Program-made: the position numbers and the translations under genes
Notes under the pieces: model-generated
Database searches by the model: none
Seen by the model: only the letters and a program-made list of their open reading frames with translations
What the model was told of the DNA's origin: nothing
Shown: positions 24,958-63,592 of the stretch, piece by piece
Position numbering within the stretch: the stretch's first letter is position 1
Layout of the letters: each line of letters starts with the position of its first letter
Source of the DNA: Eubacteriales bacterium
Lineage (GTDB): Bacteria > Bacillota > Clostridia > Lachnospirales > Lachnospiraceae
Assembly: GCA_030524175.1 (NCBI GenBank)
Contig: JAUNHC010000021.1
Location: 22,926-86,925, forward strand
Length of the DNA: 64,000 nucleotides
Reading direction: 5' to 3'

Positions 24958-25315
24958 ATACGCAACCAGACCGATAAGCCGGGTTATGTCATTGGGTGAT
25001 CATCTATCTAGGCCATCTGTTGCCGGATGGCTCAAGCGACCCACCTGAAAGCACGACGGGCAGCCGTATCGCTTTCTTCTCGGTCTTGCTTCGAATGGAG
25101 TTTACATGTGCCCGTCCTGTTACCAGGACGGCGGTAGTCTCTTACACTGCCTTTCCACCCTTACTGCGTTTAACCGCAGCGGTTTATTTCTGTTGCACTG
25201 GTCTGGGAGTCACCTCCACCGGACGTTATCCGGCATCCTGCCCTGCGAAGCCCGGACTTTCCTCGTCTGGACCCTTTCGTCTGTCCAGCCGCGATCACCT
25301 GGCCTGGTTGCGCAA
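24958..25315 (-). ncRNA. rnpB: RNase P RNA, class A
   Basis: The catalytic RNA of RNase P, which trims tRNA 5' ends. On the minus strand the conserved GAGGAAAGTCCGGGCT element, ACAGAAA, AGTAAGGGTGGAAAGGC, a TAAACTCC segment and the 3' core AGATAGATGATCAC..ACCCGGCTTATCGGTC appear in the right order. The ends pair as P1 (GCGCAACCAG with CTGGTTGCGT), which sets the boundaries to within a few nucleotides. The length of about 358 nt fits class A. Short ORFs over it are not genes. Confidence 0.97.
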
Positions 25316-53383: not shown

Positions 53384-54179
53384 TGCTCCTTTCTACTTCC
53401 TATCTGTGTTTATATTTGTATTATACGATTTTTCTGACAGTTTCGCAAGGGGGTTGTGAATTTGGGGAAATTCAGAAAACCGCAAAGGGTCCGGGCGCCG
53501 GACCCTCTGCACTCCCTTCGCGCTTTTTTTGAGCCGCCTGGGATATTGAGTTAATGGAGGATGTGACAGGGGGTACTATGCCTTGGGTTGTGGAAGGGGG
53601 GGGAGGGGAGTAGCGGCGGGGTCCGCCGGGGAAAAAGATGAGTCGGAGATGGGATATGGGGGATGATGTAGGGGGAATGGGGGTTGACTTGGGGGTGGGG
53701 ATTTGGTAGAGTGGGTGTAGGTTGGATAGGAGTATGGGATTTATGAATAAAATTGTTATAGATGAGCTGAAGAGGCGAGGCGGCTCTGTGCATTTGTGTC
53801 CGATGAAGCATTGTGCGGAGCTTAAACTAATGTCTTGGTTTGTGTGTGGATAAGTTGGACAGTGGGATACTGAAACATTGATCGTGAGATGTAATGGACT
53901 GTTTGACGGGGTTTGGACGCGGCAGGATAGATAGAGCGTGACTGCTTTTATTCATCGGGAAATATGGGATTGGCAATTGGAGTGTGTACTTTGGTATATG
54001 CTTTTAGTTGTTGTGCCTGTTTCCTGATGGATTTTGAGACGGGGCGTTTTGGTTGAGGGGCTATGGGCAATGTTTTGTCATAGCTTCTTTTTTGTGCTTT
54101 TTTAAGGCTTCTGTGGAGAGAAGGGGCGGGGATACAGGATTGATTGCTTTTATACTTATTTTTGAAAGGAATGTATATT
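53384..54179. other. G-rich, gene-poor block before efflux gene
   Basis: About 800 bp without a convincing gene. From about 53440 to 53740 the plus strand is strikingly rich in G runs, including eight consecutive Gs at 53596-53603 and four spaced G4-5 runs at 53671-53700 that could form a G-quadruplex. A palindrome at 53482-53510 resembles the terminator at 55409-55435. The only long ORF here (minus strand, proline-rich) is an artefact of the G-rich sequence. A 36-codon ORF at 53743 is possible. Confidence 0.7.
53743..53853 (+). CDS. Possible 36-residue peptide, unknown function
   Basis: Plus-strand ORF beginning MNKIVIDELKRRGGSVHLC, with CPMKHC and a C-terminal WFVCG. AGGAG lies 10 nt before the ATG. 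It has a balanced amino-acid make-up, unlike the surrounding G-rich noise. I recognise no family. It could be a degraded gene fragment. Confidence 0.2.
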   Translation: MNKIVIDELKRRGGSVHLCPMKHCAELKLMSWFVCG

Positions 54180-60571: not shown

Positions 60572-61903
60572 CTAGTCATCGAGCCGGGTAAACGGGTCTT
60601 CATATACAGAAAGAGGCCCCAGGTACTCGTGGATACGAAGAAGCTGGTTGTATTTTGCATTTCTGTCAGAACGGCAGGGTGCACCGGTCTTTATCTGGCC
60701 GGCACCGGTTGCCACAGCAAGATCTGCGATAAACGGGTCCTCCGTCTCGCCGGAGCGATGGGAAATAATAGATTTATATCCGGCCCGGTGTGCCATATCC
60801 ACTGCGTCCAGAGCTTCTGTAAGCGTTCCGATCTGGTTTACCTTGACAAGTATGGCATTTGCCACCTCAAGTTTGATTCCGCAGCGTAATCTTTTGATGT
60901 TTGTCACAAACAGATCATCTCCCACAAGCTGAACTTTCTTTCCCAGCCGCTCAGTCAGGACCTTCCAGCCATCCCAGTCGTCCTCATGCAGCCCGTCCTC
61001 AATGGACACAATGGGAAACTCGTCCATAAGCTTCTCATAATAATCGACCATTTCCTTGCCGTCCCGCAGCACCTCTTCTCCCTTCATCCTGCTCTCCCCG
61101 GGGAAATAATATACACCCCGTTCCTCATCATAAAGCTCGCTGGCTGCAGCATCAATTGCAATCTTAATATCCTTGCCCGGCTCATATCCGGCCTTATTTA
61201 CAGCGTCCATGATCAATTCCAGCACATCTCTGGCCTCTGCCAAATCCGGGGCAAAACCGCCTTCGTCTCCTACTCCGGTGGAAAGACCTCTCTGTTTTAA
61301 AATAATCTTTAAAAACTGATAAATCTCCGCACACATTCGGATGCCGTCTGCAAAACACTCAGCCCCTACAGGCATGATCATAAACTCCTGCAGATCCACC
61401 GTATTATCGGCATGCTTTCCCCCATTAAGAATATTCATCATAGGTACGGGCATTCTATTCGTATGACATCCGCCCAGATATTGGTACAAAGGAATCCTCA
61501 GTGCCTGAGCTGCTGCCCGGGCCACTGCAATAGACACGCCTAAGGTAGCATTTGCCCCAAGATTACTTTTATTATCTGTCCCGTCTGTCTCTATCAGAAG
61601 TGCATCAATGTAAGACTGATTCAAGGCGTTCTCTCCCAGAACCACTTCAGCCAATTTTGTATTTACATTATTGACTGCTTTCTCCACACTTAATCCTACG
61701 TAATTACCCTTTTCCCTATCCCGAAGCTCCACAGCCTCAAATTTGCCTGTAGATGCTCCGGAGGGTACCATGGCTCTTCCTGTATATCCATTGACTCCAA
61801 TGACTCCTTCTCCCACGGTTACTTCCACTTCCACCGTAGGATTGCCCCTGGAATCCAGCACTTGTCTTGCGTGAACTTTTCGAATGGGCAGATAGCGTAA
61901 CAT
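60572..61903 (-). CDS. eno: Enolase
   Basis: Glycolytic enolase of 443 residues (2-phosphoglycerate to phosphoenolpyruvate). Typical segments are [111 protein letters not shown] and SHRSGETED. These carry the metal ligands and catalytic Glu/Lys. The ATG at 61903 follows AGGAGG by 8 nt. It precedes secG by about 110 bp. A plus-strand noncoding unit is divergent from it. Confidence 0.97.
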
Positions 61904-62121
61904 GTTCTTACCTCCTAAAGTTTTATGCAAGTAGTTTTACCCAAAGAAATGTTTTCTATGCAGTTCCTTCTAAGTCCGAAAACGAATAATGAAGTGTACT
62001 TGTCCTCTTTGTTTCTATATTTGGTAATGTTTCAAAAGTTTTTAATTTATCAGAATATTCTTCTTGTATTTTTTACTTATTAGTTATCTTTTAATATTTA
62101 AAATATTTTTCAATTTTATTA

Positions 62122-62150
62122 TTGACATATTCAATATTATCTGTTATAGT
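62122..62150 (+). promoter_or_regulatory. Strong sigma-A promoter driving repeat-rich RNA
   Basis: TTGACA, a 17-nt spacer and TATAGT on the plus strand, in a very AT-rich setting. No protein-coding gene begins within 600 bp, so the product appears to be an untranslated RNA starting near 62157. Confidence 0.85.
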
Positions 62151-62156
62151 AAGTTC

Positions 62157-62687
62157 ATAAAACAAACGGAATTACAAATCTAACAGCAAGGGAGTGAGAC
62201 CACCGAAATATTAAGTGTTTTCTCATAAACTAAGAAAGAGAGGTACAGACCACCAGAAGAATAAGTTTTTAAACAAGAGATTGTTTTATAAATTAAGATA
62301 AGGAGGTACGGACCGCCAAGAACTTAAAGTTCTAATTCCATCATTGTTTTATAAGTTTTAGATAAGCTCTAAGTAAGTAGTATTTTTTAAAATTTTAGTT
62401 TTATTGGTTTTTAAGTTTCATTAAGTTTTTAACTATAGTTTCATAAAATTTTATTTACAAAGTATTATCCAAAACACAAAGCAATATACAAAAATAAGGA
62501 AGGTACAGTCCAATGAGAACTTAAGCTGAAATCCAAATCTTTTATTACAAAACTGAATAAGGAAGGTAAGGACCAATGAAAACTTAAGTTTTTAACCGTA
62601 CTTTAAGAAAGGAAGGTAAAGACCATTGGACACTGAACATTAGAAAGAGCCACCAGTAGAAAATTATATCTGATGGCTCTTTCTTAA
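62157..62687 (+). ncRNA. Candidate noncoding RNA built from six imperfect repeats
   Basis: Between a strong promoter and a hairpin terminator lie six related units. Their purine-rich cores start near 62190, 62239, 62301, 62498, 62561 and 62611. Each has an SD-like run (GGAG, GAGG, AGGAGG or GGAAGG) joined to GGTAMRGACC-like sequence (GTGAGACC in the first), then usually an AACTTAAG- or ATAAG-type tail. Spacing is about 50-63 bp, except for a longer AT-rich gap (62350-62490) between units 3 and 4 that may hold decayed copies. No ORF of normal length exists. I recognise no known RNA family. Multiple GGA and anti-16S motifs suggest a sponge for an RNA-binding protein or for ribosomes (inference). 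Confidence 0.6.
62643..62683 (+). terminator. Terminator of repeat-rich RNA
   Basis: GAAAGAGCCACCAG pairs with CTGATGGCTCTTTC (one mismatch) around a 13-nt loop. The T run that follows is weak (TTAAT). Confidence 0.75.
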
Positions 62688-62770
62688 TGCCCTGATACTT
62701 CCCCTTCCTCTTATGCATGAACCTGGGCTTTTCCCCATATAATAAAGAGAGGAAACTTTATGAGGTCATT

Positions 62771-63592
62771 ATGAAACTTAATCTTAAGTACATAGGCTAT
62801 GCAAAACTCCCTCTTTTATTTGTGGGTGCTTTTTTTCTGGGTGCCTTTGCAGGAAAAGCTGCTACGTATTTCAGCAACCAGACAATAGAAACATCTGCGG
62901 AAAGCACCAGCTGGGGTTTAAGCTTCCAGGAGGAAGGAAAAAGGCCGGTGGGCAATGCCACCATTGAAGAATTAAAAGAATATGACGCTTACTATGCCAA
63001 AAATACGGAAGAAAAAATTATCTATCTTACTTTTGATGCCGGCTATGAAAACGGTAATATGCCTGCCATTCTGGATGCCCTGAAAAAACATAATGTGCCG
63101 GCTACTTTTTTTGTGGTAGGAAACTTTATCTCAGATAATCCGGACTTGATCAAGCGCATGGTGGCAGAAGGCCACACAGTAGGCAACCACACCATGACTC
63201 ATCCAAACATGTCAAAAATTTCTACTCAGGAGGACTTTGCCAAAGAGCTGGGAGGTGTGGAAGAGCTTTACAAAGAAATAACCGGTACAGAAATGACAAA
63301 ATTTTACCGCCCGCCTCAGGGTATTTACAGTAAGACCAATCTTTCAATGGCAAAAGAGAGAGGGTATCACACCTTCTTTTGGAGTCTGGCCTATGTGGAC
63401 TGGTATCAGGATAAACAGCCCAGCAAAGAAGAGGCCTTCGAAAAGCTGCTAAAACGCATTCATCCCGGCGCTGTTGTACTGCTCCACAGTACCTCCTCCA
63501 CAAATGCCCAGATACTTGATGAATTGCTGGGTAAATGGGAGGAAATGGGGTATCAGTTCCAATCTCTCAGCCAGCTTGTATCGGAGGCTTAA
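62771..63592 (+). CDS. Polysaccharide deacetylase, PdaA-like
   Basis: NodB-fold carbohydrate esterase 4 protein of 273 residues. An N-terminal membrane anchor or signal (AKLPLLFVGAFFLGAFAGKAA) comes first. Catalytic motifs are LTFDAGYENG (Asp kept, second Asp replaced as in PdaA), GHTVGNHTMTHP (metal His pair), FYRPPQGIYS and AVVLLHSTSST. The relation to PdaA suggests de-N-acetylation of muramic acid in spore cortex (inference). GAGGT lies 4 nt before the ATG at 62771. A five-codon ORF (62760-62774) overlaps the start as ATGA. Confidence 0.88.
   Translation: MKLNLKYIGYAKLPLLFVGAFFLGAFAGKAATYFSNQTIETSAESTSWGLSFQEEGKRPVGNATIEELKEYDAYYAKNTEEKIIYLTFDAGYENGNMPAILDALKKHNVPATFFVVGNFISDNPDLIKRMVAEGHTVGNHTMTHPNMSKISTQEDFAKELGGVEELYKEITGTEMTKFYRPPQGIYSKTNLSMAKERGYHTFFWSLAYVDWYQDKQPSKEEAFEKLLKRIHPGAVVLLHSTSSTNAQILDELLGKWEEMGYQFQSLSQLVSEA

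Follow-up and report, generated by a model that had tools for sequence, protein, structure and literature searches.

A candidate family of clostridial RNAs built from repeated ribosome-binding-site-like units, with a micro-ORF that ends at the terminator

The locus between eno and a polysaccharide deacetylase gene

The window that we analyzed is a stretch of 64,000 nucleotides from a Lachnospiraceae bacterium (assembly GCA_030524175.1, contig JAUNHC010000021.1, positions 22,926 to 86,925); we infer that the genus of the source is Blautia. Towards the end of the window, a long intergenic region lies between a divergent enolase gene and a codirectional gene for a polysaccharide deacetylase (Table 1). 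A preliminary description of this region, made from the sequence alone, had placed it between eno and a PdaA-like gene and had noted a near-consensus promoter on the plus strand, six imperfect units, and a hairpin after them. The Pfam matches of the two neighbors agree with this setting, and both the promoter and the hairpin hold up. Six promoter-like sites were found in the 1.1 kb that we scanned, versus 3.9 expected, and the promoter in Table 1 ranks best; its CTGTTATAGT is invariant or nearly so across 20 aligned sequences. A simple scan of the region for terminators, which was limited to loops of 3–8 nt, did not report any; the hairpin has 13 nt between its arms.

Table 1. Features of the array and its neighbors (positions within the window)
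Feature	Position	Strand	Basis or remarks
Enolase (eno), divergent upstream neighbor	60572..61930	-	Pfam PF00113, PF03952
Promoter TTGACA-17 nt-TATAGT with extended -10 (TCTGTTATAGT)	62122..62150	+	11/12 consensus bases, TG before the -10
Predicted RNA	62157..62690	+	start inferred from the promoter and end from the hairpin; kept in relatives
Unit 1, startless, divergent core (AAGGGAGTGAGACCACCG..TTAAG)	62188..62215	+	partial model match; conserved in alignment
Unit 2, startless (AAGAAAGAGAGGTACAGACCACCAGAAGAATAAG)	62230..62265	+	R1, 28.8 bits; core conserved in alignment
Unit 3, startless (AAGGAGGTACGGACCGCCAAGAACTTAAA)	62293..62328	+	R1, 24.8 bits; alignment of relatives
Unit 4, with minigene AUG AGA ACU UAA (62513-62524, M-R-T-stop)	62492..62525	+	R1 match
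Unit 5, with minigene AUG AAA ACU UAA (62576-62587, M-K-T-stop)	62555..62588	+	R1 match
Unit 6, with terminal micro-ORF UUG GAC ACU GAA CAU UAG (62626-62643)	62604..62643	+	R1 match
Terminator hairpin	62642..62684	+	arms 62642-62656 and 62670-62684, 15 nt each, 93% complementary, 13 nt between
Polysaccharide deacetylase, codirectional downstream neighbor	62717..63592	+	Polysacc_deac_1, PF01522; longest ORF, a later ATG may be the true start

Each of the six units had been described as a Shine-Dalgarno (SD)-like purine run joined to a GGTAnRGACC-like core. R1, a sequence model of the unit that was built from 66 units of relatives, finds all six: units 2–6 match on the plus strand with E values from 5.5e-8 to 4.6e-6, and unit 1 matches weakly (62197-62215, E = 0.038). 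The core is absent from unit 1, which reads GGAGTGAGACC there. Up to E = 1, R1 finds nothing in the window beyond the six units. A degenerate pattern for the unit, with up to 3 mismatches allowed, has 38 matches in the window versus 23.5 (sd 4.9) expected, and none of 100 shuffles reached 38; with at most one mismatch, there are five matches, all inside the array. The spacing of the units is irregular. The stop codon of the micro-ORF in unit 6 shares 2 nt with the terminator hairpin.

Across the whole genome, R1 matched units 2–6 and gave three weak matches; it also matched the start region of a small gene that is present three times in tandem (E = 0.0026). These copies (MDKEPSTKSNKALGYLAKRIAVR...; L158–L160) are outside the window, at ~76290-78940 of G000:C9. 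Their start region (AAAGGGAGGTATAAACCAATGGAC) resembles the units of the RNA, and the product may be an AgrD-type propeptide.

The predicted RNA does not seem to be a structured RNA. The whole RNA with its terminator folds better than shuffled sequences (z = -2.76, with 0 of 100 shuffles as good), and without the terminator it barely does so (z = -0.88, with 17 of 100 as good). For the 5' part of the RNA in 20 Blautia-like sequences, RNAalifold predicted three helices of 3 bp each, and none of the nine pairs is compensatory. This also counts against the proposal that the GGTAnRGACC core folds as a 3-bp mini-hairpin: in 77% of AUG units (see below), the base that should pair with a U is itself a U. 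We therefore rejected a structured RNA as an explanation. Outside the terminator, the 5' part of those 20 sequences shows no covarying fold, so structure-based screens for RNAs could miss this class.

Distribution of related arrays

The region has matches in 20 of 36 other genomes of the same genus (E < 1e-11; in G030, over the first 57 bases only) and none at E < 1e-5 in 24 genomes from other families of the order. The preliminary description had staked itself on the conservation of the units in related genomes. We read 19 of the 20 matching genomes, and all 19 have at least two core units.

A two-unit pattern gave 114 stretches in named genomes. Based on the titles of the records, we left out 25 of these (from Actinobacteria, Bacteroidota, Planctomycetes, Chloroflexota, one archaeon, and one deltaproteobacterium); the other 89 and the window make up a set of 90 loci. 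The pattern is found in Blautia, Roseburia, Anaerobutyricum, Eubacterium ramulus, Pseudobutyrivibrio, Anaerostipes, Diplocloster, and others. Two genomes from unrelated phyla, both among those left out by title, have several matches each, namely Filimonas zeae (L057 and L118) and an Anaerolineales bin (L049, L109, and L136); we took these to be chance matches or coding repeats.

With R1 and a threshold of E = 0.001, 136 of 296 Lachnospiraceae genomes, from 114 of 243 genera, have a match, and the other 160 genomes do not. Across the order, 166 of 393 genomes have a match at E = 0.05. Nineteen of these are from other families (best E = 2.6e-4); we read two of them (L201 and L207), and one is an ordinary gene start and the other is unit-like. 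In a sample of the class, 19 of 393 genomes match, and 10 of these are outside the Lachnospiraceae. When we read those ten, six genomes from five families (f28, f32, f39, f68 twice, and f106) share the plan of the RNA, its 5' end here carrying one to three minigenes, and two have ordinary gene starts. The remaining loci (L257 and L258, from f60) have unit-like sites followed by short ORFs (MGN-stop, a 15-codon ORF, and MNP-stop), and their overall plan is ambiguous. A search with the conserved terminal ORF (described below) found five of the 393 genomes of the class sample, one of them new (f86). In total, RNAs with the same plan are found outside the Lachnospiraceae in 7 genomes from 6 families of the class. 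Several genomes have more than one such RNA. We did not find relatives in phages or plasmids at E = 0.01.

The preliminary description had recognized no described RNA family, and neither do we: at the gathering score, Rfam 15 has no match to the array, and its sole match across 15 related loci is to a tRNA. (Elsewhere in the window, Rfam identifies a class A RNase P RNA at 24959-25310 on the minus strand, with 305.7 bits, and a uup RNA at 53774-53821 on the plus strand, with 40.2 bits.) Searches of the open-licence full-text literature did not turn up this RNA; strings from the units appear there only in a paper about RNF141 and colorectal cancer. The earlier observation is real, and it was an underestimate.

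Startless units, minigenes, and the terminal micro-ORF

In 89 of the 90 loci, we identified 376 units, with 2 to 11 per locus (in L074, none scored above the threshold of the matrix). Their consensus is AAGRAAGRAGGUACRGWCC-A-(CCR or AUG)-RRAAACNNUAAG, which is sharpened by picking the units with a matrix that was trained on seeds; also, related loci are not independent. The CC of the core is conserved at 98 and 100%. At the start position, 239 units have CC, 73 have AUG, 37 have UUG, and 27 have something else. Of the 239 startless (CC) units, 149 retain a stop codon, usually UAA, at the register of a fourth codon, although no translation is expected there. Of the 90 startless units without the consensus stop, 61, 60, and 41 have a stop in frames 0, 1, and 2, respectively; this lack of a strong frame preference is expected if these units are not translated.

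The AUG units have an SD, a start codon, and a stop codon a few codons on, which is the makeup of a minigene. Of the 73 AUG units, 72 have an in-frame stop within 8 codons, as do 33 of the 37 UUG units. Among those that lack the consensus stop, a stop within 8 codons is found in frames 0, 1, and 2 in 37, 31, and 13 of 38 AUG units and in 31, 9, and 26 of 35 UUG units. The early stops owe something to composition.

The clearest coding signal comes from the end of the array. We took the 53 of 90 loci that have ATG, TTG, or GTG at the start position of the last unit and a terminator no more than 60 nt away, and we asked if the first in-frame stop is at the edge of the terminator, that is, if it ends between 3 nt before the stem and 9 nt inside it. 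This was so in 51 of the 53 arrays, versus 14 and 4 for the other two frames. We consider this the strongest test because neither the start nor the stem was chosen by the stop. In a separate scan of 153 loci, no terminator was found in 15, 19 had a terminator and no candidate terminal ORF, and 119 had a candidate terminal ORF, which is a biased rate: the scan demanded a stop near the stem, and some of the picks, such as one-codon ORFs, are doubtful. Most of the 110 distinct terminal ORFs (96) are 5–7 codons long. Their stop codons are UAA (61), UGA (25), or UAG (24), and the second residue is aspartate or glutamate in 86 (GAC in 48, GAT in 26, GAA in 10, and GAG in 2).

In the other families, the terminal ORF encodes MLDIKSEQK or something close to it, and its stop codon lies inside the stem. 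In 7 aligned sequences, the 11 pairs of this stem are intact in every one of the 77 cells, and 4 of the pairs change on both sides. As a control, sliding the partner by 1–3 columns left 42–55% paired. One of the 4 changing pairs includes the middle base of the stop codon; it is G-C in 5 of the 7 sequences and A-U in 2, so that UGA changes to UAA and the stem is kept.

The preliminary description had concluded that the RNA has no protein product. Because the arrays contain AUG and UUG micro-ORFs and usually end with an ORF of 5–7 codons whose stop is at or in the stem of the terminator, this is probably wrong.

The 5' block of the unit is complementary to the tail of the 16S rRNA, GGCUGGAUCACCUCCUUUCU, which we found in 7 of the 10 relatives that we searched; a pattern search for the tail did not find it in the source MAG. 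The startless units thus have an SD that is complementary to the 3' end of 16S rRNA and, in 239 of 376 units, CC as the first two bases of the start position. Across the 376 units, the mean predicted energy of the duplex with the 16S tail is -18.1 kcal/mol (-19.5 for CC units, -16.6 for UUG units, and -14.7 for AUG units). The controls are weaker: shuffled units average -8.8 kcal/mol, 26-mers from the spacers (398 in all) average -7.5, and 66 long ORFs in the window, each represented by its best start, average -12.5. For AUG units, the difference from the ORF starts is modest (-14.7 versus -12.5, with sd of 2.2 and 2.9). A ribosome decoy had been suggested from the repeated anti-16S motifs; pairing that is predicted to be stronger than in all three controls is consistent with that suggestion, and we keep it as a working hypothesis.

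We also considered if GACCACC, the second block of the unit, pairs with the 16S rRNA upstream of the anti-SD, in a bipartite interaction. This looks good in single duplexes, and shuffling the unit's own second block does weaken the duplexes of CC units on average, from -19.5 to -17.9 kcal/mol. However, when we shuffled the upstream 9 nt of the 16S tail, 49 of 200 shuffled tails equaled the real tail for CC units (using every fourth unit), as did 80 of 200 for AUG units, so we dropped this idea. The GGUACRGWCC core is conserved beyond what SD pairing needs and the decoy model leaves it unexplained, which leaves room for another binder.

Possible roles of the RNA

The genomic setting favors a free-standing RNA that acts in trans rather than in cis. 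Of 81 loci, 47 are followed by a gene on the plus strand (that of the RNA), 29 by one on the minus strand, and 5 by none. The setting between eno and the deacetylase is that of Blautia and of MAGs close to it; one locus (L134) adjoins eno, at 68% identity, and lacks the deacetylase. In other genera, the flanking genes encode carboxypeptidase, L,D-transpeptidase, DegV, NUDIX, SecA, dipicolinate synthase, and other proteins. (These identifications cover 20 proteins out of a list of 52 flanking ORFs; the 20 come from 13 loci, and 2 of them match no family.) We rejected a fixed target in cis, or a leader or riboswitch, because the downstream gene varies in both strand and product. That the neighbors differ by genus, that both strands occur, and that some genomes have more than one of these RNAs all argue for a role in trans. 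A related proposal is that a ribosome translating the terminal ORF opens up the hairpin, so that RNA polymerase reads on into the next gene. The placement of the stop codon at or in the stem would suit such an attenuator, as would the codirectional deacetylase gene that comes next in the window and in most Blautia-like loci; since the next gene is elsewhere often convergent (29 of 81) and unrelated, we consider cis attenuation improbable.

The RNA might instead be a sponge. Sponge RNAs of the CsrB/RsmY type have repeated units with GGA within one transcript, in variable copy number, and the array resembles them in all of these ways; the preliminary description had raised CsrA because of the repeated GGA motifs. 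In CsrB and RsmY, however, the GGA is in hairpin loops; here, the SD block and GGUACRGWCC are what is conserved, and in the 5' part of the RNA from 20 sequences, GGA is not found in conserved hairpin loops. The source genome, which is 90.7% complete, has no match to CsrA (PF02599), and among 60 genomes of the genus, including the source, two have a match and just one of these is above the cut-off. The lack of a CsrA match in the source and the near-lack of one in these genomes of the genus exclude a CsrA sponge as a general explanation in Blautia. The sole match above the cut-off (G008:C1:25635-25784) is in a genome that is 86% complete and could be real or contamination. Another protein, or a small RNA, could recognize GGUACRGWCC at the start regions of mRNAs and be titrated by the array. 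This would account for the conservation of the core beyond SD needs, and a few mRNAs do have similar start regions, such as the three tandem small genes in the source genome. On the other hand, in 6 genomes of the genus, the exact 13-nt complement GGTGGWCYGTACC occurs only in the arrays, in long open frames, and just upstream of one gene, the last in two near-identical genomes; with exact matches as the standard, we rejected an antisense partner RNA. Given this and the lack of a CsrA match in the source genome, we think that a sponge for GGUACRGWCC-binding partners is unlikely.

ToxI and other type III antitoxin RNAs, which are mentioned in PMC8040213, also combine a promoter, repeats, and a terminator. 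The repeats of our RNA are instead similar to ribosome binding sites and irregularly spaced, and no adjacent toxin gene was found: neither the 20 flanking proteins from 13 loci nor the window's two neighbors belong to a ToxN-like family. An antitoxin role is therefore extremely improbable.

Alternatively, the RNA could be a messenger for its last micro-ORF, with the terminal peptide or its translation being what matters and the startless units stabilizing the RNA by binding 30S subunits. There is a precedent in the STAB-SD of the cry3A mRNA of Bacillus thuringiensis, a startless SD that is bound by the 30S subunit and blocks RNase J1 (PMC4113751). The position of the terminal stop in 51 of 53 arrays fits with this, as do the acidic second residue (86 of 110 ORFs) and the MLDIKSEQK-type peptides of other families. 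But the terminal peptides vary by lineage (MDEIV, LDNEQ, MIEPAM, or MLDIKSEQK), arrays have up to 11 units, which is more than one stabilizer needs, and the stem may account for part of the conservation of the peptide. We regard a micro-ORF messenger as a less likely alternative.

Our preferred explanation, to which we give a probability of roughly 0.5 as a whole, is that the RNA belongs to an undescribed family in the Clostridia and works in trans, either as a decoy loaded with ribosomes or as a sensor of free 30S subunits. In this model, which we built from sequence comparisons, 30S subunits would dock on the units; the startless units would hold them without initiating, and the minigenes would release ribosomes after a few codons. 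A ribosome that completes the terminal ORF would have to open the terminator hairpin, so the production or the stability of the RNA would follow the availability of ribosomes. We speculate, with less confidence, that the RNA traps or counts free ribosomes and that its own termination or decay depends on their passage, which would make it a gauge of translation capacity.

The building blocks of the RNA are known singly. Like the STAB-SD, the startless units have an SD that should be able to pair with the 16S rRNA yet does not start translation (PMC4113751); the STAB-SD is a single site within the leader of a large gene, while here startless sites are combined with minigenes and a terminal micro-ORF in a free-standing RNA. 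Similarly, the axe-txe operon contains a two-codon minigene that acts in cis (PMC8708949), and our minigenes resemble it in having a start codon and then a stop after one or two codons. That minigene is inside an operon, whereas ours recur within a free-standing RNA, interspersed with startless units. The novelty would lie in the architecture, as we do not know of another such assembly, and the function that we propose for it is unproven.

If these RNAs are transcribed and bound by ribosomes as predicted, they would form a widespread class of RNAs in gut bacteria whose units catch ribosomes rather than make protein. This would make it possible to test if bacteria use a decoy or sensor RNA to tune their translation capacity, and if ORFs of just 3 to 7 codons are functional.
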